Counted from the stretch's first letter, positions 205 to 33,194 are shown. The stretch is DNA of 64,000 bases from Candidatus Fermentibacteraceae bacterium (GCA_016744855.1 JADGDO010000002.1:186001-250000); one strand, 5' to 3'. Program-made: numbers and translations. Notes: generated from the letters alone by a model not told the origin.

Positions 205-1452
205 GTGCGAATAGTCTTGTTGTTTTCGATTCTCTCTTTTGCCGGGACTGCGGCAGCTTTCCCTGCTTTTATGGAAAGCTTCCAGCTTTACTCTGCTGGA
301 GAAATGCTTGAGGCTGGTTACAACTCTTCCCCTACAGTCGTAGACTGGAACGATGACGGCCTCAATGATCTTGTAATAGCTTGCCTTGAAGAAATAGACA
401 GCACAAAAGTGGGAACAATACAGTTTTACCCGAACTCTGGAACAAATGCGAATCCAGTTTTCACCGGATTCACAAGAATCATGGCAGACGGAGAGGACAT
501 CCATACAGAAGGTCATTGTTGACCTAAAACAGGAGCAAGAAATCCACAGGTTGTGGATTGGAATGACGATGGAATGGATGACCTTCTTGTAGGAGAACAC
601 AACGGACACATAAAGTACTTCATGGCGGTAACGCCCGACAGTTTAACCGAAATGGATGATCTTCAGGCAGCCGGTGAAGATATTAACGCAGGTCTTGTTT
701 CGGCTCCGGCAATTTTCGATTGGAATGGTGATTCCAAAAACGACCTTATTGTGGGATTTGCATCGCCCCTGGCTGGAAGTTCGATCAAAGTTTACATCAA
801 TACTGGCACTCAGGGTAATCCTGAGCTAGCTGCTGGTGTGGATGTACTGTTTGCTGGAGAACCTCTTGCTGCCTATGGATGTACTCCCTGCATGGTTGAC
901 CTGGATCAGGACGGCCTAATTGACATTGTATACGGAGATTCCCCAGGACGAATTTACTTCTGCAAAAACATCGGAGCTGTTTCAGCACCTGTTTTTGATT
1001 CGCCTGAAATGCTTGAAACAGAACAAGGAGACATCGCGCTCGAGCTTAATACAGCTCCCTATGTGTGTGATTGGAACGATGACAGTTATCCCGATATTGT
1101 TGCCGGTTGTGGAGAGAGAGGCTATATCCATGCCTTCCTCTCTCCCTATACAACTGGTATTTCCTCTCAGGGGCAGACTAGCAATGATTTAACTGCTACA
1201 GTACTCCGGAATCCTGTTTCATCATCTCTTGGGGTACAACTGACATCAGCAGATGGAGGAGAACTCACCTCGGCAGTTTTCTCTCTTGACGGAAGAATAG
1301 TTCAGAAGCTTGATTCCAGACAGATTCAACCGGGCTCGACTATTCAAAACTTCAGCATTTCCAGTCATGCAGCCGGTGTATACATTCTGAGGTTTTCTGT
1401 TGGAAATTCAGTATCCTCTAATTTGATTACCATCATTGAAGGTGCTATCTAA
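205..1452 (+). CDS. secreted FG-GAP/VCBS repeat protein with T9SS sorting domain, interrupted by one in-frame TGA
   Basis: GTG start at 205 behind AAAGGAG (191-197). The first residues form a signal peptide ending near A-A-A-F. The body is a run of FG-GAP/VCBS-like repeats with the recurring D-W-N-D-D-G calcium-loop motif, and the C-terminus is a T9SS type A sorting domain (S-L-D-G-R, ending with a short beta strand). One TGA at 520-522 splits the frame, but the same frame stays open on both sides: 105 codons before it and, after it, a continuation that carries on the repeats for about 310 residues. The residue before the TGA is Cys. It is either a nonsense mutation, a sequencing error for Trp or Cys, or a recoded selenocysteine codon (see the hairpin at 542). 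No second disruption is present. The next gene starts 2 nt after the stop, so the two are probably co-transcribed. Function is unknown beyond being a secreted or surface-attached propeller. Confidence 0.75.
542..558 (+). promoter_or_regulatory. bSECIS-like hairpin after the in-frame TGA
   Basis: A perfect 7-bp stem, ATCCACA / TGTGGAT, closes a GGT loop at 549-551. The loop starts 26 nt after the TGA at 520-522. Bacterial selenocysteine insertion elements are short hairpins just 3' of the UGA, with a G as the first or second loop base and the loop roughly 16-37 nt from the UGA, so the geometry fits. The hairpin lies in repeat-coding sequence and could be a chance effect of codon use. Confidence 0.4.
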
Positions 1453-1454
1453 CC

Positions 1455-3290
1455 ATGAAGAATTACATCTTCACAATTCTATTCTGTCTATCAGTAGCCT
1501 CATACTCTGCAACTGGAACGCAGACAGACTGGTCGGGAGGAGCTGGCGTTTCTGGTCCGGTATCCTCCTGGTCGAATTCCTTTTCGGCATCAGAATCTAC
1601 AGAGTTTGCTGAAAACCCCGGTTCTATTTCTCTTCTCCATGGGAAATTAACAGATGCAGCGACTGAAATCGAAGGCAGTGCATTGCTATCTCTATGCACC
1701 TACCCCGAAGATGTCGATGGTGATGGAGATATCGACATTCTTGGAGCATCATTTGTCGACAACAGGATAGTGTGGTGGGAAAACCAAGGGGAGGGTGCTT
1801 CCTGGCAGTCCCATATTGTAACTACTGATCTTAATGGCGCGTTCGGTGCAGTCTGTGCCGATGTCGATAATGACGGAGATAACGACATAATTGGTGCTGC
1901 CATGAATGCTGACGTGGTTCTCTGGTGGGAAAACACTGATGGTTCAGCAACAACGTGGATTGAGCACTCTATTGATGACAGTTTGGACGGAGCCAAAGGC
2001 ATTTCAGCAGTTGACATAGACGACGATGGCCAGATCGATGCTGTTGTTGCTGCAAAGGGCGCAGATGAAATTGTCTGGTACAGAAACAACGGTTCAGGTT
2101 CCAGCTGGACCTTACACTCGATTACCACCGGTTTTGATTGTGCAATGTCTGTAGTTCCCGTTGATTTCGATGATGACGGAGACTGGGACATACTTTCGGC
2201 TGCTAAACTTGAGGGTGCTGTTCGCTGGTATGAAAACGTTGATGGTTCCGGGAACAGCTGGACAGAGCACTCAATAGGCGAAGACTTCTACTACGCAAGA
2301 AATGCATGTGCCGACGATATTGATGGTGACGGTGATATCGACGTTCTAAGCGCTGGTGGTGTCAGCAAATCAGTTGGTACAGTTTGCTGGTGGGAAAATA
2401 CAAACGGTATGGCAACAAGTTGGGCACAGCACATAATTGATGATGAATTTCACGGACCCTTTGCAGTTCTTCAATACGATGTTAACGGCGATGGCGATCC
2501 TGATGCAGTCTGCGGATCTCTGAATCAGAATGTAATCTGCTACTGGGAAAATGAGAATGATGGCCTCTCATGGGAGCCTCATGTCCTGGCCAACATCTAT
2601 GCACCGAGCATTGTTTCAGCAGCAGACCTCACAGGCGATGGGAACACAGAAATTTTTGCAGCTTCCCTCTACAGTTTCAACATCACATTCTGGGAAGTCT
2701 TTGGTTATCAGCCTGAAGGCTCACTATTTTCGAGCATCCTCGACACTGGAGAAGATGCCGAGTGGGTAAATCTCGACTGGACATCTGATACTCCCGAGGG
2801 TACCACCCTTGGTGTATCGATGAGATCCTCCTGGGATTCTCAGGATCTCGGTGCTTGGTCAGATACCGTATTCACATCACCCTACGATCTATCATCTCTG
2901 ATAAACGACAATGACAGATTCGTACAGTATTGTGTAGTAATGCAAAGCGATTCCTGGGAGATAACACCAGCTCTCGAGAGTCTTGAGATATCATGGAATC
3001 CGCTTTCAACCGGTTCCGCAAATGAACATGAAACCACACTTGGAATTACTGGAGGCAACCCGGCTGGAACCTCACCAGTAGTCGTCTTCACTCTGAACGA
3101 AACACAAACAGCTACTCTAACTGTTTATGATCTTTCTGGAAGATCTGTGTTTACAACGGGTGAAAAGCGAATGCCGGCTGGAACCAGCGAGTTCAGGATC
3201 AACAGGCTTTCTGATGGTATCTATTTTGCTGAACTTCAGTCAACAAACGGAAGGATTTCCAATAGATTCACTGTGATAAATCAGCTTTGA
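1455..3290 (+). CDS. secreted FG-GAP/VCBS repeat protein with T9SS type A sorting domain
   Basis: A 611-residue protein with an N-terminal signal peptide (hydrophobic stretch ending S-Y-S-A). From about residue 80 to 410 it has seven or so repeats built as D-x-D-G/N-D-G-D-x-D followed by W-W/Y-E-N, the FG-GAP/VCBS propeller pattern with calcium-type acidic loops. A spacer with beta-rich sequence follows, and the last 80 residues are a T9SS type A sorting domain (V-Y-D-L-S-G-R, ending S-N-R-F-T-V-I). It begins 2 nt after the preceding gene and ends in TGA. It is a paralogue of the protein at 11159-12958, sharing the architecture and the T-Q-T-x-W opening of the mature chain. Family knowledge says such proteins are exported over the outer membrane and attached or released; the ligand is unknown. 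Confidence 0.85.
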   Translation: MKNYIFTILFCLSVASYSATGTQTDWSGGAGVSGPVSSWSNSFSASESTEFAENPGSISLLHGKLTDAATEIEGSALLSLCTYPEDVDGDGDIDILGASFVDNRIVWWENQGEGASWQSHIVTTDLNGAFGAVCADVDNDGDNDIIGAAMNADVVLWWENTDGSATTWIEHSIDDSLDGAKGISAVDIDDDGQIDAVVAAKGADEIVWYRNNGSGSSWTLHSITTGFDCAMSVVPVDFDDDGDWDILSAAKLEGAVRWYENVDGSGNSWTEHSIGEDFYYARNACADDIDGDGDIDVLSAGGVSKSVGTVCWWENTNGMATSWAQHIIDDEFHGPFAVLQYDVNGDGDPDAVCGSLNQNVICYWENENDGLSWEPHVLANIYAPSIVSAADLTGDGNTEIFAASLYSFNITFWEVFGYQPEGSLFSSILDTGEDAEWVNLDWTSDTPEGTTLGVSMRSSWDSQDLGAWSDTVFTSPYDLSSLINDNDRFVQYCVVMQSDSWEITPALESLEISWNPLSTGSANEHETTLGITGGNPAGTSPVVVFTLNETQTATLTVYDLSGRSVFTTGEKRMPAGTSEFRINRLSDGIYFAELQSTNGRISNRFTVINQL

Positions 3291-3299
3291 TCAAAACAT

Positions 3300-3326
3300 C
3301 GGGCGGGAGCGTTTAGCTCTCGCCCG
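3300..3326. terminator. hairpin terminator between converging genes
   Basis: An 11-bp stem with one G-U pair (3300-3310 with 3316-3326) and a 5-base loop sits between the stop of the plus-strand gene at 3290 and the stop of the minus-strand gene at 3338. There is no clear T-run on the plus side; on the minus side GATGTTTT follows the stem. It probably serves both genes. Confidence 0.6.
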
Positions 3327-3337
3327 AGTCGAAACTG

Positions 3338-4033
3338 CTACAGCTGAACACCGAAGATATGTACCAGCGACAAATACACACCGACAAGAATAAACAAAAC
3401 CCCTGTTACCTTGCTTGCATATTTCTGGAACACCTCTACTTTGTCGAATATGCGTGAGGCTTTGTCTACTCCGGCAGCAAGAACAATGGAGAGCAGCAGA
3501 ACAGGAACTCCGGTAGCAACTCCATAAGCCAAAGGAATTACAACCGAAGAATTCGCACGAAGCGCTAAAGGAAGCGCGCTACCAAAGAACAAGGCCGCTG
3601 AAGTCGGGCAGAATGACAGGGCAAACAGAACTCCAAGCAGACCTGCTCCCCAAATTCCCGCACGATTGACAGAGTTCTTCAGTCTCCCTGCCGAAAATCC
3701 TCCTCCGGTACCGAAAGAGATAAGATTAAGCAAAACCATCCCAACAAGTACAAGAACAGGACCCAAGATCATGTTCATGTATTTCTGAAGAAAATGCGAT
3801 ATAGCAGGCAGATCAGACATGCTCCTGACGAGAACCATTCCCAAAACAGTATAGGTTATTCCACGGCCGAGAGTGTAGATAAGCCCGGCAAGAAAAACTC
3901 TCTTTCTCGAGTCTACTTGCCGCCCGATGTAAGAAACTGCGGTAAGATTTGTTGCCAAAGGGCAGGGACTGATCGAGGTGAGTATGCCTAACCAAAAAGC
4001 AGAGACAATGCCGCCGAGCAGTTCCAGATTCAT
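3338..4033 (-). CDS. arsG: ArsG-family (CcdA/DsbD-like) membrane transporter
   Basis: A 231-residue membrane protein with about six hydrophobic segments. It carries S-P-C-P-L-A-T-N near Cys24 and S-F-C-P-T-S near Cys142, the paired Cys-Pro motifs of the CcdA/DsbD transmembrane superfamily. Its placement directly after an ArsF-like and a small thioredoxin-like gene matches the arsEFG arrangement described for Shewanella, where ArsG is an efflux permease for trivalent aromatic arsenicals and ArsE/ArsF form the reducing partner. The ATG overlaps the stop of the upstream gene by 4 nt, so translation is coupled. The superfamily call is firm; the substrate is inferred from neighbours, and passage of electrons to periplasmic thiols is an alternative. 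Confidence 0.75.
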   Translation of the reverse strand: MNLELLGGIVSAFWLGILTSISPCPLATNLTAVSYIGRQVDSRKRVFLAGLIYTLGRGITYTVLGMVLVRSMSDLPAISHFLQKYMNMILGPVLVLVGMVLLNLISFGTGGGFSAGRLKNSVNRAGIWGAGLLGVLFALSFCPTSAALFFGSALPLALRANSSVVIPLAYGVATGVPVLLLSIVLAAGVDKASRIFDKVEVFQKYASKVTGVLFILVGVYLSLVHIFGVQL

Positions 4034-4479
4034 TTCACTTTCTCCAGTTCCACAAATATTTCACTGGTGACATATTCATAGAAAGCAGAGCTATCTGAAG
4101 TAAATTCCCAGACACGGTCAAGTTTTATCCAATCAGCATTTTCTATGTTTTCAACCACAACAGTTCGGTTAGCAAGATCAAAGTCGGTAACGAAATGCTC
4201 ATTCTCCCGATCTTCTATATTCACTATTCTGATTGCCAGAGTCCCATTATCCATTTCCTGCTGAAATTCAATCTGAAGACTGGAGAGTAAAAGTCGCTCG
4301 ATAGTGTTGCAGGAGACGCAGCGCATGTTACCATGGAAATAGTAAACAACCACTTCTGAAGCTACCTCTGGAACAGTCTCCGGTGTATCCGACTCACCAG
4401 TTTCCTTTGCAACAGCAAAAACCACACTGAGCCCTACAAAGATGATTAAAATTCCTGTAACCATCTTTTTTGAATTCAT
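4030..4479 (-). CDS. arsF: ArsF-like protein with extracytoplasmic C-x-x-C domain
   Basis: A 149-residue protein with one N-terminal hydrophobic segment (residues 7-24) acting as signal anchor or signal peptide, then a thioredoxin-like domain with Y-F-H-G-N-x-R-C-x-x-C (Cys54 and Cys57). This Y-F-H-G-x-x-R-C pattern is characteristic of proteins annotated as the ArsF subunit of a nitrophenyl/arsenical reductase. It overlaps ArsG by 4 nt and starts where the small thioredoxin-like gene ends. Inferred role: redox partner in an organoarsenical or thiol-redox efflux system, with the Cys pair facing the periplasm. Confidence 0.7.
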   Translation of the reverse strand: MNSKKMVTGILIIFVGLSVVFAVAKETGESDTPETVPEVASEVVVYYFHGNMRCVSCNTIERLLLSSLQIEFQQEMDNGTLAIRIVNIEDRENEHFVTDFDLANRTVVVENIENADWIKLDRVWEFTSDSSAFYEYVTSEIFVELEKVK

Positions 4480-4712
4480 CAGCTCAACATCTCTTTTAGT
4501 ACCTCTATAGAGGGTACTTTACCGGCAATTTTCACTACTCCATCGACGGCCATTGCCGGGGTCATCATTACACCAAAGCTCATGATGTCATTCAGATCAG
4601 TAACCTTTTCCAGTTCAAACTCTACTCCAAGTGCAGTTGCAGCTTCTTTTGCAGCTTCAGCAAGCTTGTTGCATTTAGGGCAACCAGTTCCAAGTATCTG
4701 TATTTTCTTCAT
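4479..4712 (-). CDS. small thioredoxin-like protein (glutaredoxin-like, ArsE position)
   Basis: A 77-residue single-domain protein starting K-K-I-Q-I-L-G-T-G-C-P-K-C, with the redox pair Cys11 and Cys14. The cis-proline motif M-M-T-P-A is present. Length and motif match the MTH895/TM0996-type redox-active disulfide proteins, often named thioredoxin family protein and found in arsenic operons beside UPF0718 permeases. GGAGA precedes the ATG. It has no signal peptide and is probably cytoplasmic, where it could pass electrons to the membrane partners encoded on both sides. Confidence 0.8.
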   Translation of the reverse strand: MKKIQILGTGCPKCNKLAEAAKEAATALGVEFELEKVTDLNDIMSFGVMMTPAMAVDGVVKIAGKVPSIEVLKEMLS

Positions 4713-4732
4713 TTTCTTCTCCTTTGTTGTGT

Positions 4733-6001
4733 CTAGATAAGGCCATAAATCAATCCGCTTACAGTAGCCATAACTACCACCAGCGAAACAAATGTAACTG
4801 TTTTTTTAGTACCCATTACGCTTCTGATCACTAACATGTTTGGAAGGCTTAAAGCAGGACCTGCGAGCAGAAGAGCCAGAGCCGGGCCCTTGCCCATTCC
4901 ACTGCCTATAAGCCCCTGAAGAATCGGAATTTCTGTAAGAGTGGCAAAGTACATAAATGCACCGGCAACAGAGGCAAACAAATTTGCCCGGAGGGAATTC
5001 CCACCTACAGCAGCCTCAATCCACGAAGAGGGAATGAGACCCTCGTAACCAACTCGACCGAGAAGTAACCCGGCAGCTAGAACTCCAGCGAGAAGCAGTG
5101 GAAGAATCTGCCTGGCAAACCCGAATGTAGCTTCAAACCATTCAGCTCCCTCTCCGCCACCACTGGCAAGAATCAGAGAGAGACCAAGCATTCCAACAAC
5201 AAATGGAACTGTAAAACCCTCAGGAATCAGTAGTGCCGTCAATGCAACAAGAGCAGCAAGAGCAGCAATCTTCCAGATCTTTGTCTCCATCCAGCGTACT
5301 AGAACAAGACCGAGGGCTATCCCAAGTAAAGAAAGAATGGGCTCTTTCATGCCGTAAATTGATCCGCCCCACGTTGCAGTAACCATGATTGCAACAAGAA
5401 TGAAAAAGAACACTGCGTTTTTCCATAAAGATCTTCCGGAATTATCCATAGTCATCGCCGGAGCCGCAGATACCCTTTTGGCCTCATCTTTCCTGAATAT
5501 CAGATGCATTAGCAAACCGATAACAACACTAAAAATCACGGCACCGAACGCCCTTGCAATTCCAAGTTCAACACCGAGGACACGAGCTGTCAGTATTATT
5601 GCCAGAACATTTATAGCTGGGCCAGCGTAGAGGAAAGCTGAAGCCGGCCCGAGACCTGCCCCCATTTTGTAGATACCTGCAAACAGAGGCAACACTGTAC
5701 ACGAACAAACAGCAAGAATAGATCCGGACACCGAAGCAACGGAGTAAGCAACAATTTTTTTTGCTCCGGCTCCGAGATACTTCATAACAGATCCCTGACT
5801 TACAAAAACACCAATTGCTCCTGCAATGAAAAACGCAGGGATCAGACAGAGCAGCACATGCTCACGTGCATACCACTTAGCCAACTCAAAGGCTTCAAGT
5901 ATTGCAAAATCGAATCTTTCCTTACCCACCGGCAGGTAATAAATGCCTAGGAAAACCCCTGCCAGTAAAGCTAGACTTTTCCAGTCTTTTTTCCAGTTCA
6001 T
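4733..6001 (-). CDS. UPF0718/ArsP-type permease
   Basis: A 422-residue membrane protein with about ten hydrophobic segments in two halves. It carries the V-C-S-C-T-V-L-P-L-F motif (Cys99 and Cys101) of the UPF0718 (DUF318) permeases. The duplicated small-residue motif appears as A-G-P-A-I-N in the first half and A-G-P-A-L-S in the second. ArsP, a member of this family, exports trivalent organoarsenicals, which agrees with the adjacent ArsR and ArsF/ArsG-like genes. The start codon overlaps the arsR stop by 4 nt (ATGA), so the two are translationally coupled. The transported compound cannot be read from the sequence. Confidence 0.85.
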   Translation of the reverse strand: MNWKKDWKSLALLAGVFLGIYYLPVGKERFDFAILEAFELAKWYAREHVLLCLIPAFFIAGAIGVFVSQGSVMKYLGAGAKKIVAYSVASVSGSILAVCSCTVLPLFAGIYKMGAGLGPASAFLYAGPAINVLAIILTARVLGVELGIARAFGAVIFSVVIGLLMHLIFRKDEAKRVSAAPAMTMDNSGRSLWKNAVFFFILVAIMVTATWGGSIYGMKEPILSLLGIALGLVLVRWMETKIWKIAALAALVALTALLIPEGFTVPFVVGMLGLSLILASGGGEGAEWFEATFGFARQILPLLLAGVLAAGLLLGRVGYEGLIPSSWIEAAVGGNSLRANLFASVAGAFMYFATLTEIPILQGLIGSGMGKGPALALLLAGPALSLPNMLVIRSVMGTKKTVTFVSLVVVMATVSGLIYGLI

Positions 6002-6333
6002 GATGACTCCCGACTATTCAAATACTCAGTTTCCTCTTTGATATTCAATTTGATTACTTCATCAAAACAGCTTAGGAACCCTAGAATGCAGGGGGTTCTC
6101 AAACTGTAGTAAACCTGTTTGCCATTCTTTCTGTACTGAACAATTCCAGCTTTCCGAAGAACTGACAGATGTCGTGAAATAGTTGAGTAATCAAGATCGA
6201 GGGCATCGTTAAACTCACACACACAGAGTTCCTTCTCTGCTAGTTTTTCCACCATCCACAGCCTGTAGGGGTTGGCAAGAGCTTTCAGAGTTTCGGCTCT
6301 ATCTCTGTAGAACAACATTTCTGCTTGTTTCAT
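5998..6333 (-). CDS. arsR: ArsR/SmtB-family metalloregulator
   Basis: A winged-helix repressor of about 111 residues. Counting from the start chosen here, the metal-binding motif E-L-C-V-C lies at Cys37 and Cys39 in the alpha-3 helix, as in As(III)-sensing ArsR proteins, and two more Cys lie near the C-terminus (T-P-C and L-S-C). The recognition helix reads D-Y-S-T-I-S-R-H-L-S-V-L. The frame is open from an ATG at 6348, but the ATG at 6333 has AAAGGAAA just before it and gives the usual family length, so it is preferred. It heads the operon and its promoter overlaps a direct repeat that is likely its own operator. Confidence 0.9.
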   Translation of the reverse strand: MKQAEMLFYRDRAETLKALANPYRLWMVEKLAEKELCVCEFNDALDLDYSTISRHLSVLRKAGIVQYRKNGKQVYYSLRTPCILGFLSCFDEVIKLNIKEETEYLNSRESS

Positions 6334-6349
6334 AATTTCCTTTCGCATT

Positions 6350-6384
6350 TATGCAAATATATGCAAACGTACATAAGTAAGCAA
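6350..6384 (-). promoter_or_regulatory. promoter and probable ArsR operator of the ars-type operon
   Basis: On the minus strand TTGCTT (6379-6384) and TATATT (6356-6361) are separated by 17 bp. Two direct copies of TATGCAAA (plus strand, 6350-6357 and 6360-6367), exactly one helical turn apart, cover the -10 box. ArsR-family repressors bind AT-rich repeats overlapping the promoter, so this is the expected operator position. Confidence 0.6.
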
Positions 6385-6390
6385 CCGAAA

Positions 6391-6406
6391 GGTAAGCTTG
6401 CTTACC
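6391..6406. promoter_or_regulatory. perfect 16-bp palindrome in the arsR/cupin divergent region
   Basis: GGTAAGC-TT-GCTTACC is a perfect dyad just upstream of the arsR -35 box and about 45 bp before the cupin start. A half-site, GTAAGC, recurs at 6377-6382. It could bind a dimeric regulator acting on either side. Confidence 0.45.
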
Positions 6407-6448
6407 CGCAAAGAATCCGGCAGATTGCATAAAACCGAATGGAGCAAA

Positions 6449-6808
6449 ATGATTAATCAGATTCTCGACGATCACAGAGATCAAAGAGGTTTCGTTGTAA
6501 ACCCTTTTGAACTTCTTGCAAACACAGGAGACATCAGCAATTGCCACGCATTTTCCATAGAACCGGGGCACAGCAGGGGTAACCATACCCACCCGGCAAG
6601 AAACGAACAGATACTTGTTCTTTCAGGCTCAATCACCGTCCAATACCCTGACAAGAAAACAGTTCTCTCAGCAGAGAAGCCATCAATTCTGACAGTATCT
6701 GCAGGATCGAAACACACATTTACAAATAACTCAACAGCAACAGCTGTAGTTATCTGCTGGAGTAGTGCCAGAGATGAGACATACGCTGGAGATGACACCG
6801 TCTGGTAA
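6449..6808 (+). CDS. cupin-domain protein
   Basis: A 119-residue single cupin domain. Start is the ATG at 6449 with GGAG four bases upstream; longer frames reach back to 6398 without a ribosome site. The first cupin motif reads G-N-H-T-H-P with His46 and His48 and then N-E-Q-I-L-V-L-S-G, and the second half has S-A-G-S-K-H-T-F. The pattern is like the cupins of capsule or dTDP-sugar enzymes (CapF C-domain, WxcM/FdtA-like), but no sugar genes are near. It is transcribed away from arsR. Substrate unknown. Confidence 0.75.
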   Translation: MINQILDDHRDQRGFVVNPFELLANTGDISNCHAFSIEPGHSRGNHTHPARNEQILVLSGSITVQYPDKKTVLSAEKPSILTVSAGSKHTFTNNSTATAVVICWSSARDETYAGDDTVW

Positions 6809-6919
6809 CTACTGCTCAAATTAGCCTTGGACACGATAGAGTCTGTGAGGGGAAAAATAAATCCCGTATGTTCGGCTTTAACATATTCTGTTTCCCATTA
6901 CCATCTGAGGTGAAATACC

Positions 6920-8266
6920 ATGATACTTCTTCTGGCCATAGCAGCGGGACTACTGCCATTCAATGTTGAGTTTGATTATCCGGGCAGCCAGACTGGCAAA
7001 GGTGCAGTTCAGACTGATTCCGGCTTTCTAATTGCTGGAAATACCCCACTCGATGCCAGTGGAAACTTTCAAGTGATATATGCCACTTATGACACTGAGG
7101 GTAGTTTTCTCTATGCTGATTCCTTCCACATAGGTGAGAGTACAGAGATTTATGCAGTTCAGTACTGTGACGCTGGGATAGTATTCACGGGAAACTGGAC
7201 AGACCCCTCCTCCGGAGTTAATGCCTTTGCATATACGATATCTTCCAGCTGCGAAAAATTGTGGACATACACCCTTGAGCTCGACTTTCATGAGTCTTTC
7301 ACAACAGCAGCACAGGGAACCAGTGGCGATGTTGTATGCGTAGGGTCAACCAGCAGCTTGGGTGCGGGTGGCAAAGATGTTCTGATGGTTGCACTTGACC
7401 AGTCTGGAAATGAACTCTGGCGAAAAACCTATGGCACTCCGGGAGAAGAAGCGACTTACCACATATCACCCTGCTCAGATGGTGGTTACGTACTTGCCTG
7501 CCAAGCAATGACATGGGGAGCTGGGCTTGGAGATTACTGGATAATCCGAACAGACAGCATGGGTGACACTCTCTGGACAAACACCTACGGAGGTCCTGAA
7601 TTTGATTATCCCTGGAGAGTCGCTGAAATTGGAGACTGTTTCTATGTTGCCGGAAGCACCCTCTCCTATGGCGCTGGAAGTTATGACTGGTGGATACTGA
7701 AACTCGACCAAACCGGTGAAATCATTTGGGAGACAGCCTGGGGAAGTAAAAACACAGACACTGCCATGGCGCTAACAGTAAGAGATGGCATGCCTGTTGT
7801 GGGAGGATCTTCCGAACCACAGTTAAACCAGTCACAGTCTACTGTGGTTGCTTTCAATGAGGATGGATCCGTGTATGAGGAATGGCTCTATGACCCGGCA
7901 ATGATCAGATCAATAGAGACTCTCGACAACGGTGGATTTCTTATTGGAGGTGTCAGCTACAGCCGTGATTCATCACTATGGGCTTTGTGCATAGACTCCC
8001 TCGGTAACGGTCCGGGCATGGGAATCATCCCGGAGACAGGAAAAAGCGACATCAGTTTGAGTACTAATCCTGTATTCCATTCAGTTGAAATCAAGGTGCT
8101 CGACAGCTCGTCAACTGTCACAGTCTGTGATCTTTCGGGAAGAATTGTGAGAACTGCTGAGATAAACAACGGGAATGTTCTATTAGACACCTCTAGTCTA
8201 CCCGCAGGAGTTTACACCATTCGAAGCAGCTGCGGGGGAGCAACCCGTATGGCTGTTATCAGGTGA
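6920..8266 (+). CDS. secreted beta-propeller protein with T9SS sorting domain
   Basis: A 448-residue protein, ATG preceded by GAGGTGA. A short hydrophobic leader is followed by about six repeats of about 50 residues of the type G-G-x-x-x-x-G-x-x-x-x-x-x-G-x-x-D-x-W-x-x-x-x-D-x-x-G-x-x-x-W, a propeller pattern common in FCB and archaeal secreted proteins (Y-G-G-P-E-F-D-Y and similar starts). The final 75 residues are a T9SS type A sorting domain (V-C-D-L-S-G-R). It ends with TGA. Nothing in the repeats indicates an enzyme; a binding or structural role outside the cell is likely. Confidence 0.8.
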   Translation: MILLLAIAAGLLPFNVEFDYPGSQTGKGAVQTDSGFLIAGNTPLDASGNFQVIYATYDTEGSFLYADSFHIGESTEIYAVQYCDAGIVFTGNWTDPSSGVNAFAYTISSSCEKLWTYTLELDFHESFTTAAQGTSGDVVCVGSTSSLGAGGKDVLMVALDQSGNELWRKTYGTPGEEATYHISPCSDGGYVLACQAMTWGAGLGDYWIIRTDSMGDTLWTNTYGGPEFDYPWRVAEIGDCFYVAGSTLSYGAGSYDWWILKLDQTGEIIWETAWGSKNTDTAMALTVRDGMPVVGGSSEPQLNQSQSTVVAFNEDGSVYEEWLYDPAMIRSIETLDNGGFLIGGVSYSRDSSLWALCIDSLGNGPGMGIIPETGKSDISLSTNPVFHSVEIKVLDSSSTVTVCDLSGRIVRTAEINNGNVLLDTSSLPAGVYTIRSSCGGATRMAVIR

Positions 8267-8514
8267 CCCCGGATTGAGACGGAACCACCTAGACTGAGCG
8301 AAGATGAATGCGACTTCGGCATGTATAGAACAACATATCAGCATAACGATCGTTCTACACTAAAAGGAAGCACCATTTTCACGCAAGTATGTAATCCAGC
8401 CTCCTATTTTTCATATTACTCTGTACACAAAACCTTATTGGTGTTACATTAACCATGTAAATTGGATTTGTCAGAAAAGCAGAAGCTTCTTTTCAAATTT
8501 CAAGGGAGAGTCAT
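8267..8514. other. intergenic region, 248 bp
   Basis: No gene, tRNA or strong hairpin is seen. A weak promoter-like pair, TTATTG and TAAATT with 17 bp between, lies about 70 bp before the gene at 8515. Confidence 0.5.
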
Positions 8515-9150
8515 ATGAACACGCTTTCAATCATCTTTGTATCTATAGCATGTCTTACCACCATCGACCTCTTATCCGATGGTTCTTTACCCGTTAATTC
8601 CTCTTCATCGGGAGACATGCTCCAGTATGATGATGGAACTGCTGTTTGGTCGTACTTTGAGCAACAATACAGAGGGATCTGGTTCAATTTGGATGACTTC
8701 ATTCCCGGTGAGCCAGGTTTTGACCTCGTGTATACAGAACTATGGTTCTACCATGACACTGCACACCCCTGGGACACTTCAGAAACACATGTCGAGTTCT
8801 GGAATGGCACCTCTTCAAACCCGCAGGAGTTTCTTGACCAAGTAACCGTAACTGCACTTCACTTCGCGCCTTCCATAATAGAACACCCGCTCAACAGCAT
8901 AACAGTTGAAAGTCAGTTTTGGATTATACAGAACACGGATTTGAGCCTGGGAGGATGGCCGTCTATTATAGGTGATCATGGGGGTTTACCGGTTGTTCAC
9001 AGCATGGTCAGAGAGAACATGTCTTTATGGGAACCATATACTCCAGCAAACGAAACCAACGGGAATTTCTTTATTCGCACATTGTACGATCCATGGCCCT
9101 GGTCTTCTTTGGCACCTCAGACATGGGCCTCCATTAAGACCGTATTCTGA
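8515..9150 (+). CDS. secreted protein of unknown function
   Basis: A 211-residue protein starting at ATG 8515 behind GGGAGAG. It has a hydrophobic N-terminus (residues 1-20) that looks like a signal peptide, then an acidic, aromatic-rich beta-type sequence containing D-D-G-T-A and several W-F/W-N motifs. It has no T9SS sorting domain and ends S-I-K-T-V-F. I do not recognise the family. It stands alone between a propeller gene and a convergent CPBP protease gene. Confidence 0.65.
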   Translation: MNTLSIIFVSIACLTTIDLLSDGSLPVNSSSSGDMLQYDDGTAVWSYFEQQYRGIWFNLDDFIPGEPGFDLVYTELWFYHDTAHPWDTSETHVEFWNGTSSNPQEFLDQVTVTALHFAPSIIEHPLNSITVESQFWIIQNTDLSLGGWPSIIGDHGGLPVVHSMVRENMSLWEPYTPANETNGNFFIRTLYDPWPWSSLAPQTWASIKTVF

Positions 9151-9205
9151 CAGATCTGCAACAGAACGGATCGGTCATTGCCCAAAAGTCCAGAAGAACC
9201 TGTCA

Positions 9206-10192
9206 TTAGGCTGATTGGTTCGAAGCTGCAACCTGCTTATCACCCTTTCTCAACGCCAGATTGGGTCCTTCTCTGTAGAGTATAGTAAACACGACTACGA
9301 GCAAAAGCATGACCAGAACACCATGGGAGTATAGACCTTGAGGATCTTCCAGGAGAGGTGAGTTGAAGAAACCACTGAGACCGGTAGGGTCATTAAATAA
9401 CCCGTGAATTGCAACACCGATTAGAATACTGCCGCCCAGACGATTATAGAAATAGGTGATGATAATACAATACAGAATGCAGGTAATGGTGAAAAAGAAA
9501 TAGAACGCAATACACTCGTGAATCGGCCAAACATTCAGCTTGATTGGTATATGCCACAGAGACCAGATTATTCCCAGAATGATACTCGCCTTTAGTGGAC
9601 CATGTGATTCTTGAAGTCTTGGTAAAGCAAATCCACGCCAGCCAAGCTCTTCCATTAACCCTCCACCTTCAAAAAACAATCCGGTAAAGAAAATGAAGAT
9701 GATCTCCTTGACAGAGTATAGGGAGTGAACCACAAAGAAATCCTTGAGCTCAACTCCGTTAGCGTAATTTATGAGAAGAGAATAAACCAGATTCAAGCCA
9801 ACCACAGTGCCGATAGCCTGCAACCATATTTTGATTCCAGCGCTCTTTGAAATGTCAGGAGCCCAGAATCTGAAACGCTTGAACAGTATTTTAACTTGCT
9901 TCTTGCCGTTGATGATCAATGATGAAAGAATCGCAGACAAAGAGGCACTGAAGGGCATTCCAAGAAGCAGAGCAGCGAACCATGCACCTCCGCTGACCCT
10001 TAATGCAATAGGAAGAGAGTAAAGGATATTTGTATTGTAATCTCTACCCTGGTTGGCCTCATACATATCTGGTCCGAAATCAGGGAATGCCTGGAAAATA
10101 AGAATTGCAGGTCCAATGGATAACAGAGCTAACAAGAGCGCTAATAACCAAAATGCAAGAACCTGATGCCTAATAAAGAAACTTCTCATCAT
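9206..10192 (-). CDS. CPBP-family intramembrane metalloprotease
   Basis: About 328 residues with some eight hydrophobic segments. It contains the CPBP/Rce1 motif 1 E-E-L-G-W-R-G in the form G-L-M-E-E-L-G-W-R-G-F, and motif 2 as a W-S-L-W-H-I-P segment, providing the Glu pair and His expected for metal binding. The frame is open from 10222, but the ATG at 10192 has AGGGG just upstream and is preferred. The family comprises CAAX-protease-like membrane proteins, some linked to bacteriocin self-immunity or membrane protein processing; the substrate here is unknown. Confidence 0.8.
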   Translation of the reverse strand: MMRSFFIRHQVLAFWLLALLLALLSIGPAILIFQAFPDFGPDMYEANQGRDYNTNILYSLPIALRVSGGAWFAALLLGMPFSASLSAILSSLIINGKKQVKILFKRFRFWAPDISKSAGIKIWLQAIGTVVGLNLVYSLLINYANGVELKDFFVVHSLYSVKEIIFIFFTGLFFEGGGLMEELGWRGFALPRLQESHGPLKASIILGIIWSLWHIPIKLNVWPIHECIAFYFFFTITCILYCIIITYFYNRLGGSILIGVAIHGLFNDPTGLSGFFNSPLLEDPQGLYSHGVLVMLLLVVVFTILYREGPNLALRKGDKQVAASNQSA

Positions 10193-10377
10193 ACATCCCC
10201 TGTAATAATTCAGAAATAACACTCAATTGCTGTTTTTGATAAAATCTTAAACGGTATCTCCCTCGCTCCTTCTTAATAGAACACATCAAGGGAATGCAGG
10301 CAATATCTCTCCAGGGAGTACCTATTTCCTGCGCTAATAGACTACCCCAATATGACTAGCTGTGAGAAAAAGAACCG

Positions 10378-10403
10378 ATATTGGATACATTTAGAACTCA
10401 CTG
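10378..10403 (+). repeat. intergenic repeat, degenerate copy 1a
   Basis: Contains ATTGGATACATTTAGAACT, matching the core of the family (GGATACGTTTCGAACT) with a few changes. It lacks the GGCACCCCGTA front half. Confidence 0.55.
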
Positions 10404-10426
10404 TTAAAGAAGCTCTACTCGTTCGC

Positions 10427-10461
10427 TTTGGCACCCCGTAGTCGACGCTTTTGGAACTGAT
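10427..10461 (+). repeat. intergenic repeat, copy 1b
   Basis: Begins TTTGGCACCCCGTAG and continues TCGACGCTTTTGGAACTGA. The front half is identical to the copies at 11088 and 13258; the second half is diverged. It lies 74 bp upstream of the toxin-antitoxin pair, in the same orientation as the copy that follows the toxin. Confidence 0.75.
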
Positions 10462-10534
10462 TTCAGGAAATACACAACAAAGAAGTCTGGACTTCTATGA
10501 TAGCCAAGTCGTATCTTCCAAACAACGGAGAGGA

Positions 10535-10759
10535 ATGAACATGGATATCAGTTTTCAGTTAGAAAAGATGACAATTCTGGAAAAGCTCCAAACGATAGAA
10601 GAAATCTGGAAAAATCTAGCAGAATCTTCTAACAGTGTACCATCTCCATCTTGGCATAATGATGTACTTCTTGCCAGAGCGGGAAGGGTTGAAGAAGGCT
10701 CATCACAATTTTCTGACTGGTCTGAGGCAAAAGATCGAATCCGCAACAAAACCAGATGA
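10535..10759 (+). CDS. antitoxin, addiction-module component (TIGR02574-like)
   Basis: About 74 residues, mostly helical and acidic. The N-terminal half L-E-K-L-Q-T-I-E-E-I-W-K-N-L and the C-terminal W-S-E-A-K-D-R-I-R match the short antitoxins annotated as putative addiction module components, which pair with ParE/RelE toxins. Two ATG codons (10535 and 10541) follow GGAGAGGA; the second has the better spacing. The stop overlaps the toxin ATG by 4 nt. In this class the antitoxin binds the toxin and usually represses the shared promoter. Confidence 0.8.
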   Translation: MNMDISFQLEKMTILEKLQTIEEIWKNLAESSNSVPSPSWHNDVLLARAGRVEEGSSQFSDWSEAKDRIRNKTR

Positions 10760-11061
10760 TTATCCATATTCTTGATGATGCTGAGCAGGATCTGATAGAT
10801 GGATTTAATTTCTACGATTCTCAAGAATCTGGTCTGGGTGACTACTTCATTGATTCTCTTTTCTCTGATATCGACTCGCTACACCTTTATTCAGGCATTC
10901 ACCCCATCAAGTTCAGTTACCACCGAATGCTTTCCCAACGGTTCCCATTCGCAATCTACTACGAGATAGAGGAGAATACTGTTAAAATATGGGCTGTACT
11001 GGATTGTAGACAGAATCCCGTTTCTACTCTTAAAAGGCTGGAGAATCTGGAGCTGAGATAA
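10756..11061 (+). CDS. ParE/RelE-superfamily toxin
   Basis: A 101-residue protein with the alpha-alpha-beta ParE fold signature: an N-terminal A-E-Q-D-L-I-D-G-F-N-F-Y-D helix region, H-R-M-L-S-Q-R-F-P-F-A-I-Y-Y-E strand and V-K-I-W-A-V-L-D-C-R-Q-N-P at the end. These are the conserved blocks of type II toxins of the ParE/RelE family. It overlaps its antitoxin by 4 nt. Whether it attacks gyrase or ribosome-bound mRNA cannot be told from sequence. The pair is bordered by same-orientation copies of an intergenic repeat, suggesting it arrived as a cassette. Confidence 0.85.
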   Translation: MIIHILDDAEQDLIDGFNFYDSQESGLGDYFIDSLFSDIDSLHLYSGIHPIKFSYHRMLSQRFPFAIYYEIEENTVKIWAVLDCRQNPVSTLKRLENLELR

Positions 11062-11087
11062 TAGTAAATTCTTCAGCTGGTAAAAAA

Positions 11088-11125
11088 TCTGGCACCCCGT
11101 AGTGGATACGTTTCGAACTGAGGTG
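11088..11125 (+). repeat. intergenic repeat, copy 2
   Basis: GGCACCCCGTAGT followed by GGATACGTTTCGAACTG and AGGTG. This copy matches that at 13258 closely. It begins 27 bp after the toxin stop and ends before the 3' end of the minus-strand gene at 11159. Confidence 0.8.
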
Positions 11126-11158
11126 AGAATGGAGAATTCGAAAACTCCAGATCTCAAA

Positions 11159-12958
11159 TCACTCAATAACAGTAAACCTCTGGCTAGCATTTCCTTCTGA
11201 TGTTTGAAGGTTGCAGAAGTAAACTCCAGGAGATAGTTCTCCTACAATTGTGCTGTGGTATCCTGAAGGATAGTTTGTCTCGTTTCTTGTGAAGGCAACT
11301 CTGCCGTAAATATCAAAAACTGACACAGAAACCAGTGAAGATTCGCTCAGAAAGAATTTGATTTCAGGTGAGCCGCTCACAGGAGAAGGGGATACTGGAT
11401 AAAGAACTGCTTCAGCCAGCACTTCTAAGTTTGGGTCCGATAGAGCGACAGGATTCCAGTTCAGGGCTATGTCGTATAGTACAGGGGCTGTATCGGCATC
11501 ATCCCTGGTTAGGATGATCATATACTGGAAATAGCTGTCATTTTCCGGAAGAATACCAGCTAATGAACCTGATTCCCAAATGGTATCCTGCCAGGCTCCC
11601 ATGTTGATCTGATCAGATGACCTGACTCCAATACCGACATTAGACCCTTCTGGGAGATACGCTGAGAAATCAAGGTTGCCCCATCCCGGATCATTTCCAA
11701 GGAATAGAATGCTGGAAGTTAACGATGCCGTAAAGATGTCTGTAACCTCCCAGTAGGCGAGTGAAACATTGTCTCCCCCAAACACTGTACCAATAACTTC
11801 AGTGATGCCGTCATCATTCAAATCATCAGCAAACACATCGCTTGCTCTCTGGAAGTATGGGCAGACCTCATGCTGAGTCCAATCGGTTCCGGTAGTGTCG
11901 AGGTTCTCCCACCAGTAAACAACCGACACTGCAGTAGCTGTAATGTCAAGATCACCATCATTATCTATGTCATACCCAAAGGTTCCGTCTGGAGAACCTG
12001 TGTTCACGTTTGCTACTAAGTGTTCAGTCCACTGTGTTCCTGTGCCATCCACATTCTGCCACCAACGAATCTTGTTATCATAACAAGCCATCATATCAAT
12101 GGATCCATCACCATTTACATCATTTACGTCCATCCCATCGACAGGCCCTCCAAAAATACCATGCCTAATCCAATTCGTGCCTGTTCCATCAACATTCTCG
12201 TACCAGGTTACATCACTGTACTCCACAATAACCACATCGAGATTACCATCACCGTTCACATCTGCTGATTGGACAAGACTCGGTCGCTCCATACTGAAAA
12301 GTAGTCTCTTTGTCCAAGAGAGGCCATTTCCGTCCAAATTCTCGTACCAGAATGCATCGTCCTCGTCAGATACAGTAACAATGTCAAGGTCGAAGTCCCC
12401 GTCAAAATCACCGAAGGAAATGTCTCTAGGCTTAGCAACATCAGAATCAATTAATCTTTCTATCCAGTTAATACCTGTTCCATCAGTATTCTCCCACCAG
12501 ATAATACTGTTGCCCCAGTAACTTCCTCCTGCTAGATCAGTAAAACCATCACCATTCAAATCACAAGCCTGGTTGAAATGGATACCGAGCGAACAGGTTG
12601 TGGCCACAGTATGCTCTGTCCACAAATCACCTGAACCATCATCATTCTCCCACCATGATGTGTTATAGAACAAAGGAGCAGCTACAATATCGGTGAACCC
12701 ATCATTGTTCATATCTGCTGTATGAGGAGTGCTTGTATAAGCATAGGAACTGTTGAGATTGACTTGGTGATATGCAGCAAAGGTTAACTCTCCTGCTATT
12801 TCCACGAATGCATCACAATCACTGAAATAGTTTTGCCCCCATTCCACAACTGGACCAAGCACACCTGACTGGCCCTTCCAGGATGTTTGTGTCACAGAGT
12901 CACCGCCTGAAACGCTCACAATAAACAGAAGGCAAAATAGTATTGCTTCTCTATGCAT
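11159..12958 (-). CDS. secreted FG-GAP/VCBS repeat protein with T9SS type A sorting domain
   Basis: About 599 residues, starting at the ATG at 12958 with GGAGGAATT directly before it (an upstream ATG at 12973 would leave this site inside the gene). A signal peptide is followed by a T-Q-T-S-W opening, eight or so repeats of the D-x-N-x-D-G-x-x-D type each ending in W-W/Y-E-N-x-D-G-x-G/T, a beta-rich spacer, and a T9SS sorting domain (V-F-D-I-Y-G-R, ending A-S-Q-R-F-T-V-I). It is a paralogue of the protein at 1455-3290, with the same order of parts. Probably a calcium-stabilised surface or secreted propeller; the ligand is unknown. Confidence 0.85.
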   Translation of the reverse strand: MHREAILFCLLFIVSVSGGDSVTQTSWKGQSGVLGPVVEWGQNYFSDCDAFVEIAGELTFAAYHQVNLNSSYAYTSTPHTADMNNDGFTDIVAAPLFYNTSWWENDDGSGDLWTEHTVATTCSLGIHFNQACDLNGDGFTDLAGGSYWGNSIIWWENTDGTGINWIERLIDSDVAKPRDISFGDFDGDFDLDIVTVSDEDDAFWYENLDGNGLSWTKRLLFSMERPSLVQSADVNGDGNLDVVIVEYSDVTWYENVDGTGTNWIRHGIFGGPVDGMDVNDVNGDGSIDMMACYDNKIRWWQNVDGTGTQWTEHLVANVNTGSPDGTFGYDIDNDGDLDITATAVSVVYWWENLDTTGTDWTQHEVCPYFQRASDVFADDLNDDGITEVIGTVFGGDNVSLAYWEVTDIFTASLTSSILFLGNDPGWGNLDFSAYLPEGSNVGIGVRSSDQINMGAWQDTIWESGSLAGILPENDSYFQYMIILTRDDADTAPVLYDIALNWNPVALSDPNLEVLAEAVLYPVSPSPVSGSPEIKFFLSESSLVSVSVFDIYGRVAFTRNETNYPSGYHSTIVGELSPGVYFCNLQTSEGNASQRFTVIE

Positions 12959-13189
12959 AATTCCTCCGATCAATCAACAGACTCCCCAACAGAACAATTT
13001 TCTCATCTGTGCCGCAGTATAACTATATGGTTTTTCAATAGAAAAAAAACTGCATAGTTCAGTGTTGGTATTGATTGATTGAACATCAAGCATCTATCCA
13101 CACTCTATGTGTTTGAGTACTCTGAAATGCTTCCAGAGAGAATCAAAAAGCACAGCAAACTGGACAGAGCTCTACAAAAAGAAATTACA

Positions 13190-13248
13190 GTGCCCGAAGT
13201 ATTGGATATGTTTCGAACTCCGCTGTAATAAGTTACAGTCACTAAAAG
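13190..13248 (+). repeat. intergenic repeat, copy 3 with extended tail
   Basis: TGCCCGAAGTATT then GGATATGTTTCGAACT, followed by the tail CGCTGTAATAAGTTACAGT. The same tail, with one or two changes, follows copy 4, so here the repeat unit is about 50 bp rather than 35. Confidence 0.7.
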
Positions 13249-13257
13249 AACTTACAG

Positions 13258-13310
13258 TTGGCACCCCGTATTGGATACGTTTCGAACTGGGCTGGAATAA
13301 GTTACAGTAA
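13258..13310 (+). repeat. intergenic repeat, copy 4 with extended tail
   Basis: TTGGCACCCCGTATT then GGATACGTTTCGAACTG and the tail GCTGGAATAAGTTACAGTA. This is the fullest copy in the window and shares its core with copy 2 at 11088. Confidence 0.8.
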
Positions 13311-13316
13311 TACATT

Positions 13317-13346
13317 TTGGCACCCCGAAGCGAATTCGAACTCGGG
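13317..13346 (+). repeat. intergenic repeat, copy 5 (shortened)
   Basis: TTTGGCACCCCGAAG then CGAATTCGAACTCGGG. The middle is deleted relative to the other copies. It ends exactly at the stop codon of the minus-strand SUMF gene. Confidence 0.65.
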
Positions 13347-14111
13347 TTAGTTTGAGGCTCTAACAAGTCTGAGACCCAGGAAATAGTACTGCAAATCTGG
13401 GTAGCAGGCATCACGGGCTGCAGAACGACACCTGCGAAGAGAGCTGCCAATACTTCCCCCACGGCTAACCATGTTTAACGTGGAGGGCTCAAGCCATGAA
13501 GATCCATCAGTGGGAGCTCCTTCGTAGCTTTCATGGAAGTAATCCTCACACCATTCCCAAACATTTCCGCTCATGTCATAAAGACCCCAGGCATTCGGGG
13601 CGAGCTGGGCACACTCCTCAGTGGTAGATCCCGAGTTGTGATCAAACCACCCGATCTCTTTAAGATTATCTTCACTGTCACCTGAATAGTACCTTGTTGT
13701 GGTTCCAGCCCTGCAGGCATACTCCCACTCAGCCTCAGTCGGAAAGCGGTAGTTGTATTGATTGTCGAGTTGATTCAACTTCTCAATAAATAGAGCACAC
13801 TCATTCCACGAGACACATTCCACAGGACTAGCGGGATTCGGAAAGTACGAAGGGTTGCTGCCCATGACCTCTTCCCAGAGTTCCTGGGAAACCTCTGTTG
13901 TCATTATTTCAAAAGAATAGTTGATGGTAACCTCGTGCAGAGGGCTCTCGTTTGCATACCTACCCTCTTCTCCTTCAGGGCTGCCCATCATGAATGAACC
14001 GGCCGGAATCACGGCAAACTCCATTGCTGTTAATACACTGTTCATTCCCGATGGATCAGAGCAAGCAGAAAGACAAGTTATAGCAAATGTGGTAAAAAAC
14101 ATATTTTTCAT
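13347..14111 (-). CDS. SUMF/formylglycine-generating-enzyme-like lipoprotein
   Basis: A 254-residue protein, ATG behind TTAGGAGA. The N-terminus is a lipoprotein signal with lipobox L-S-A-C (Cys near residue 17). The rest is one SUMF (FGE-sulfatase) domain: F-M-M-G-S, R-F-P-T-E-A-E-W-E-Y-A-C-R-A-G, N-A-W-G-L-Y-D-M-S-G-N-V-W-E-W and R-G-G-S, ending G-L-R-L-V-R. In true formylglycine-generating enzymes two copper-binding Cys follow the R-G-G-S block; only one Cys is found there (R-R-C-R-S-A-A-R), so it is probably not a sulfatase activator but one of the many non-enzymatic or ligand-binding SUMF proteins. Its 3' end touches an intergenic repeat. Confidence 0.85.
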   Translation of the reverse strand: MKNMFFTTFAITCLSACSDPSGMNSVLTAMEFAVIPAGSFMMGSPEGEEGRYANESPLHEVTINYSFEIMTTEVSQELWEEVMGSNPSYFPNPASPVECVSWNECALFIEKLNQLDNQYNYRFPTEAEWEYACRAGTTTRYYSGDSEDNLKEIGWFDHNSGSTTEECAQLAPNAWGLYDMSGNVWEWCEDYFHESYEGAPTDGSSWLEPSTLNMVSRGGSIGSSLRRCRSAARDACYPDLQYYFLGLRLVRASN

Positions 14112-14203
14112 AATCTCCTAACTCTCTGGACTATTAGATTCAGTGAGGGTATTCTATAGTAATCATACGAAGATTCAAACAACAACGGGCAGGAAAACTT
14201 AAA

Positions 14204-14488
14204 ATGATGAAAATACCGGATGAAATGATGGGTATGTGCGCAGATAAGATGGTGACAATGCTACCATGCTGAGTAAGCATGGTTCTTCCGGGAGTTCCCC
14301 GGAGCAAAAGAATTGTCTTTGTGCACAAGTTGATAAGGCTCCTTCTAGAGGATGGTATCGATGGGATTACCAAAAAGGAGTACGACGACCTTTCAGCAAT
14401 GATTCAGAATCTGCTTGATTCAATAACAGTTGATTCTGAAACAAAAGAAAAAAATGAAGAACCGGAAGACAAACCGGGAAGTTGTTGA
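14204..14488 (+). CDS. small Met/Cys-rich protein interrupted by one in-frame TGA
   Basis: ATG at 14204 (second ATG at 14207) behind AGGA. The frame gives 22 codons rich in Met and Cys (ending M-L-P-C), a TGA at 14270-14272, then 72 more codons in the same frame: a basic/hydrophobic helix (R-I-V-F-V-H-K-L-I-R-L-L-L), an I-T-K-K-E-Y-D-D-L helix and an acidic tail ending P-G-S-C. The 92-residue protein at 38939 is a clear homologue with matching order (Met-rich start, K-V-F-L-F-E-S-V-R-E-M-L helix, M-T-D-E-E-Y-Q-L-L helix, ending N-S-C-C), which shows that both sides of the TGA belong to one gene. The TGA follows a Cys codon and a hairpin lies just downstream. Nonsense mutation or selenocysteine (Cys-Sec) are both possible. 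Function unknown; Met/Cys content suggests metal or thiol chemistry. Confidence 0.65.
14286..14304 (+). promoter_or_regulatory. bSECIS-like hairpin after the in-frame TGA of the small Met/Cys-rich gene
   Basis: Stem TTCCGGG / CCCGGAG (seven pairs, one of them G-U) closes an AGTTC loop at 14293-14297. The stem starts 13 nt and the loop 20 nt after the TGA, and G is the second loop base followed by U, which fits the bacterial SECIS pattern. GC-rich hairpins occur by chance, so this alone is not proof. Confidence 0.4.
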
Positions 14489-14545
14489 GGCGATGCAGAA
14501 GAAGGTCAGGTGACCTCTGAAGGTGATTGCTGCCCCGTTTAGTTT

Positions 14546-32876: not shown

Positions 32877-33194
32877 CTAACCGACAGCAATGGTTTCGCC
32901 GCAGGCTTTGCATACGCGCCTGAGACGGCCCTCGGCATCACGGGTGCGGCTAATTCCTGTGGCTTTGCCGCATCCTGGGCATATCAGTCTGAGGTTCGAT
33001 ACGTGTATCGGAGCCTCTCGCTCAATTATGCCGCCCTGCTGATTCTTCTGGGAGGGACGGGTATGTCTTTTAATGAAGTTAAGACCTTCGACAATTGCCC
33101 TTTCTCTTCCGGGAAAAACCTTAAGTATTTTCCCTTCTTTGCCCCTCTCGTTACCTGATAAAACCTTAACCTTATCGCCCTTCTTCACATGCAT
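32877..33194 (-). CDS. rplX: 50S ribosomal protein L24
   Basis: A 105-residue L24 with the KOW motif near the start (H-V-K-K-G-D-K-V-K-V-L-S-G), E-G-L-N-F-I-K-R-H-T, and a C-terminal half carrying C-P-G-C and C-K-A-C. The four Cys suggest a zinc ribbon, as in many non-proteobacterial L24 proteins. Confidence 0.96.
   Translation of the reverse strand: MHVKKGDKVKVLSGNERGKEGKILKVFPGRERAIVEGLNFIKRHTRPSQKNQQGGIIEREAPIHVSNLRLICPGCGKATGISRTRDAEGRLRRVCKACGETIAVG

Follow-up and report, generated by a model that had tools for sequence, protein, structure and literature searches.

Three in-frame TGA codons in two genes of a Fermentibacterota genome very probably encode selenocysteine, in two protein families that look new

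From comparative sequence evidence, we conclude that three in-frame TGA codons in two genes of a Candidatus Fermentibacteraceae bacterium (GCA_016744855.1) are almost certainly read as selenocysteine (Sec) by the standard SelB/bSECIS system. In the proposed mechanism, SelB would deliver Sec-tRNA(Sec), with its UCA anticodon, to UGA, and a small hairpin about 17-26 nt 3' of the UGA, its loop rich in G and usually GGU, would specify Sec. The decoding system is a known one; what look new, when compared with a 2026 inventory of 119 prokaryotic selenoprotein families (PMC13188914), Pfam and NCBIfam, are the two protein families. Both genes lie in a stretch of 64,000 nucleotides, which we call the window, from a 3.24 Mb draft genome of 107 contigs whose named close matches belong to Candidatus Sabulitectum (Fermentibacterota), one fragment being 81% identical. 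Two genes in the window are interrupted, TGA alone serves as the interruption, and the two genes hold three TGY-TGA sites.

An earlier note on this DNA had proposed that two frames interrupted at TGA share a recoding mechanism. Both interruptions are confirmed: 205-1452 is open save for the TGA at 520-522, and 14279-14488 ends at the TGA at 14486-14488. The second gene, however, begins before 14279, with an ATG at 14204, and a further in-frame TGA at 14270-14272 had been overlooked. Its statement that TGA is an ordinary stop elsewhere was borne out, with 3288 and 8264 ending long ORFs and 5998 forming a minus-strand ATGA overlap. The Cys it placed just before TGA is indeed encoded at all three window sites (TGT before 520-522, TGC before 14270-14272 and TGT before 14486-14488), but does not hold as a general rule, most homologues having G-U-C, with the Cys after. 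A preceding Cys as a component of the signal was considered and ruled out, as the residue before TGA in homologues can be G, T, Y or R; the Cys is incidental. The shared mechanism itself is upheld by the Sec machinery, the cross-phylum TGA, the Cys homologues, covarying hairpins and purifying selection past TGA, and the argument originally made for it is weaker than this final evidence.

The first gene (205..1452, plus strand) starts at a GTG with AAAGGAG upstream and, with TGA translated as U, yields 415 residues including one Sec, U106, encoded by the TGA at 520..522 (+) in the context GHC-U-PKTGARNPQ and shared with the orthologues L037, L038 and L039. Its N terminus looks signal-like by eye. 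A Pfam search finds FG-GAP repeats (FG-GAP_3, 4.9e-13, 49.9 bits, cut-off 26.9), and the secondary structure of the predicted model (mean pLDDT 86) places five FG-GAP propeller blades at 319..1137 (+), with inner strands at residues 39-46, 112-117, 165-171, 227-231 and 284-288 and the Sec loop predicted to precede the inner strand of blade 2; the best PDB matches of the model are five-bladed GH43-type propellers (Z 19). A T9SS C-terminal (type A) sorting domain at 1210..1416 (+) is recognized by NCBIfam TIGR04183 (25.4 bits, cut-off 23), and Pfam Por_Secre_tail scores 24.7, slightly below its cut-off of 27. With the type A sorting domain in the protein and the translocon gene SprA in the genome (SprA_N, 65 bits), the gene 1 product is a predicted T9SS-exported protein. 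The host genome has a very large repertoire of exported proteins, with over 100 hits to the T9SS sorting tail.

The second gene (14204..14542, +), again with TGA as U, encodes 112 residues with Sec at U23 and U95 and a Cys-Cys-Pro-Val end. Its first Sec codon (14270..14272, +; MLPC-U-VSM) is kept as TGA in loci L027-L033 wherever these cover it, and the second (14486..14488, +; KPGSC-U-GDAEEGQ), after which the frame runs 17 codons on to a TAG at 14540-14542, is kept in the relatives that cover the site. Full-length relatives within the genus have both TGAs, as do a second genus of the family and a more distant relative from another family of the same order; one genus member has a mid-gene frame break, and another has the N-terminal part absent. 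A distant paralogue without TGA (L189, G012:C203:4454-4675) ends in Gly-Cys-Cys (QGCC). The model predicts four helices and an unfolded tail. Searches of Pfam and NCBIfam gave no family and no convincing Pfam relative, and the PDB gave no match by structure or by sequence. In several relatives, though not in the window, a C69 dipeptidase gene lies directly upstream of gene 2, and TonB/ExbD genes adjoin gene 2 tail to tail throughout the genus; neither settles a function for gene 2. A plasmid search gave no match.

The genome encodes the Sec machinery, with SelA (503 bits), SelB (316 bits), a tRNA-Sec (68 bits, anticodon TCA, UCA in the RNA) and two SelD genes. In each selD the U of the classical CAG-U-AGK motif is an in-frame TGA, followed by a hairpin whose GGU or GGC loop lies 22 nt downstream, and these Sec codons and hairpins are an internal positive control. 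Across genomes, SelB scores above cut-off in 23 of 26 with TGA forms versus 8 of 20 without (Fisher p=0.001, with relatedness ignored). The three TGA-form genomes in which no SelB match above cut-off was found (L071, L086 and L132) may perhaps be incomplete; L132, a Nitrospiraceae member with a TGA form and a weak hairpin, is an exception.

The conservation of TGA in the gene 1 family was followed by homology searches, from which the genome-wide tally of TGA forms comes. A profile search of the host's own genome found a single TGA at the motif in all nine full-length members (9/9), whereas none of the remaining 117 matches, almost all of them confined to the T9SS tail, contains an internal stop. 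Among 99 relatives there are about 100 homologues with one TGA each. In the combined set, which includes the named genomes, 96 of the 126 long matches (250 or more columns covering the motif), from several phyla, have TGA at the motif and 0 of 126 have TAA or TAG; the outcome that would have spoken against recoding, TAA and TAG being as frequent as TGA, was thus not seen in these homologues. With overlap among loci taken into account, the distinct Sec sites number 86. Where TAA or TAG occurs away from the motif, it is almost always just 5' of a start codon. Carriers of TGA include Fermentibacterota, WOR-3/Stahlbacteria, Fibrobacterota, Krumholzibacteriota, Zixibacteria, Planctomycetota and Nitrospirota. 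The most frequent motif is G-U-C-T-G-A-T-N-P-Q, the window protein having the minor C-U-P-K-T-G form, and the adjacent Cys can be missing, as in members with G-U-x-G or T-U-G. Among forms that lack TGA, Planctomycetota and groups related to them have GC(M/L/Q)G and Verrucomicrobia have GGCGAP, so that GUCxG or GULG pairs with GC(M/L/Q)G as Sec and Cys forms, most clearly for GULG, with a one-residue alignment shift relative to GUCxG. A paralogue with GET for GUC (L048:62-1303, minus strand, and the second ORF of L069) keeps a SECIS-like hairpin and is probably a recent Sec loss. In orthologue pairs the non-synonymous/synonymous ratio is 0.1-0.5 on both sides of each TGA, with synonymous change near saturation, except in the last 11 codons (the tail segment) of one comparison; these ratios indicate that purifying selection continues past TGA.

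Hairpins 3' of TGA, which the earlier note had described for two sites with G-U in the loop, are present at all three, with G-U or G-G in a loop that lies 26, 20 and 19 nt after the TGAs at 520, 14270 and 14486, and they fall within the published bSECIS rules that we applied, 16-37 nt after the UGA and a G within the first two loop positions (PMC13188914). The gene 1 hairpin, AAUCCACA-GGU-UGUGGAUU (541..559, +; loop 549-551), has a stability of -7.7 kcal/mol, equalled by 1% of synonymous recodings. The first hairpin of gene 2, UUCCGGG-AGUUC-CCCGGAG (14286..14304, +), reaches -10.6 kcal/mol, equalled by 0.2%, and its stem is retained in relatives with compensatory changes. The second, AGGUC-AGGU-GACCU (14503..14516, +; -5.4 kcal/mol), conforms to the loop and spacing rules and is weak by itself because 19% of synonymous recodings are equally stable; relatives have GGGUC-AGGU-GACCC at this position, or have replaced the stem wholly. 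Both gene 2 hairpins are kept among relatives, with different stem sequences in the more distant ones.

In the gene 1 family, 91% of the 86 Sec sites are followed by a hairpin of at least 5 kcal/mol. The figure is 20% for 268 ordinary TGAs that end long frames, and 10% for 228 internal Cys codons. Hairpins are therefore much rarer after normal TGA stops (20% vs 91%), where the earlier note had allowed that they might prove equally common. A hairpin alone is not diagnostic, since 20% of ordinary TGA ends pass, and we dropped it as a sole criterion because the terminator after 3288 outscores everything else: that ordinary stop has a terminator-like hairpin (3288-3330, -24.8 kcal/mol) that passes the bSECIS rules. 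Elsewhere in the window, at 33040 (+), a Cys-TGA in MPPCUFFWEG has a weak GGUA hairpin and is flanked by 53 and 51 open codons. As the stem sits on the NPQVVDW codons, protein conservation needed to be excluded as its source. Under random synonymous recoding that keeps to the codon use of the gene itself, the mean is -2.2 kcal/mol versus the observed -8.2, with p<0.05 at 60 of 86 sites, related sequences being counted as independent here as in the other statistical tests. Pro codons CCT/CCC occur 0 times within the NPQVVD-type motif versus 61 of 127 in other blades, and Val is GTG in the stem in 50 of 50 cases versus 14 of 59 elsewhere, which indicates that codons are fixed where pairing requires it. 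One stem position is paired A-U, G-C, G-U and U-A across the family. Cells with both sides changed number 13 versus 3.3 expected from shuffling, and slid registers come nowhere near, although the p-values of this test are overstated because shuffling leaves relatedness in. Two of the stem compensations also change the amino acid: Val becomes Ala alongside CCG, and Glu alongside CCT.

Three other readings of the interrupted frames deserve consideration. Conserved frames broken by in-frame stops could mean that both genes are decaying pseudogenes and their TGAs chance nonsense mutations, but this is barely conceivable when the same column holds TGA in dozens of genomes and TAA or TAG in none, when selection persists past TGA at near-saturated synonymous change, and when nine family members in one genome carry TGA without exception. 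We regard it as highly improbable that the conservation of the hairpin is a mere by-product of the conserved peptide NPQVVDW; the stem does lie on conserved codons, and the related FPRVVDW also occurs in Cys forms, but such hairpins are rare under synonymous recoding, codon use in the stem is skewed relative to other blades, the compensatory changes alter amino acids, and by inspection Cys forms with a near-identical peptide have no hairpin. The remaining reading accepts that read-through is clearly selected and supposes that a suppressor or near-cognate tRNA inserts Trp or Cys. The case for selenium is made from sequence, which gives this some room, yet the complete Sec machinery, the fit of the hairpins to both the bSECIS rules and the host's own selD hairpins, the Cys that replaces TGA in distant homologues, and the tracking of TGA forms by SelB together make it very improbable. 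Selenocysteine insertion thus remains the reading that we adopt for all three codons.

The biochemical roles of both proteins are ones that we infer. The gene 1 product would be a five-bladed FG-GAP propeller exported via the type IX secretion system, its Sec lying next to a Cys in the loop entering the inner strand of blade 2, at or near the propeller mouth; the placement at the mouth draws on an analogy with five-bladed enzymes, whose loops meet there. We think that the protein works through this Sec-Cys pair. Tentatively, and at a little short of an even chance, the pair would be redox-active, most likely as a selenenylsulphide, with a soft-metal site less likely. That the exported propeller instead provides a soft-metal or selenium/sulphur ligand site and is not redox-active seems to us unlikely, if not strongly so: adjacent Cys-Sec is found in the organometal-linked SaoL and HgcA (PMC13188914), and an extra Cys in blade 4 is common among TGA forms and rare in others, but only about a third of members have it. 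The gene 2 product is predicted to be small and helical, one Sec lying next to a pair of helices and the other in a flexible C-terminal GCUG-like tail; it is probably a redox or soft-metal carrier. Thioredoxin reductase ends in a C-terminal GCUG tail, and gene 2 is like it in its flexible GCUG-like end segment and further Cys, a resemblance only; unlike thioredoxin reductase, it is without a flavoprotein domain, has 112 residues and has a second Sec near the N terminus. Also in the window, 3338-6348 (-) is an apparent operon whose translations suggest an ArsR-type regulator, a permease, a thioredoxin-like protein and a CcdA-like membrane protein.

Set beside the E. coli-type system of SelA, SelB, SelD, tRNA-Sec and bSECIS, the machinery, spacing and loop G are the same, the GGU loop is that of the host selD, and there is no essential difference, the hairpin of the FG-GAP family being strikingly uniform. 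Gene 1 shares the repeats, DxDxDG-like loops and predicted propeller fold of FG-GAP/VCBS propellers (PF13517, PF01839; integrin alpha, CRTAC1), and is unlike them in its five blades, its Sec-Cys loop before blade 2 and its T9SS tail. SaoC, SaoL, HgcA and MbdU are CU-motif selenoproteins with adjacent Cys-Sec, MbdU having two Sec (PMC13188914); the window proteins share the adjacent Cys-Sec with all four, and gene 2 shares its two Sec with MbdU. None of the sources searched lists a selenoprotein form of FG-GAP/VCBS propellers, the 119 inventoried families include neither an FG-GAP protein nor a propeller (PMC13188914; those known by Pfam/InterPro alone were compared by name, the Pfam ones also by scan), and neither window protein matches the selenoprotein models of NCBIfam release 20. 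We found no literature linking selenoproteins with FG-GAP (in the relevant sense), Fermentibacter, VCBS or T9SS, though Haft and Tolstoy 2025 and Deng et al. 2026 may mention such a link.

The propeller fold is thus not among the listed prokaryotic selenoproteins. Standard gene calling would cut these genes at TGA, and as a result a large exported family spanning several phyla is likely to be truncated or missed in annotations. Its uniform hairpin and its Cys forms make a ready set in which to study how Sec and Cys are exchanged and how SECIS elements evolve. It is unusual for a single genome to hold nine selenoprotein genes from one exported family, and this points to extracellular use of selenium. 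It is possible, if on balance doubtful, that secreted five-bladed propellers with a Sec-Cys mouth constitute a widespread and unnamed class of extracellular selenoenzymes, one that, with nine copies here, would place much of the cell's selenium at its surface.
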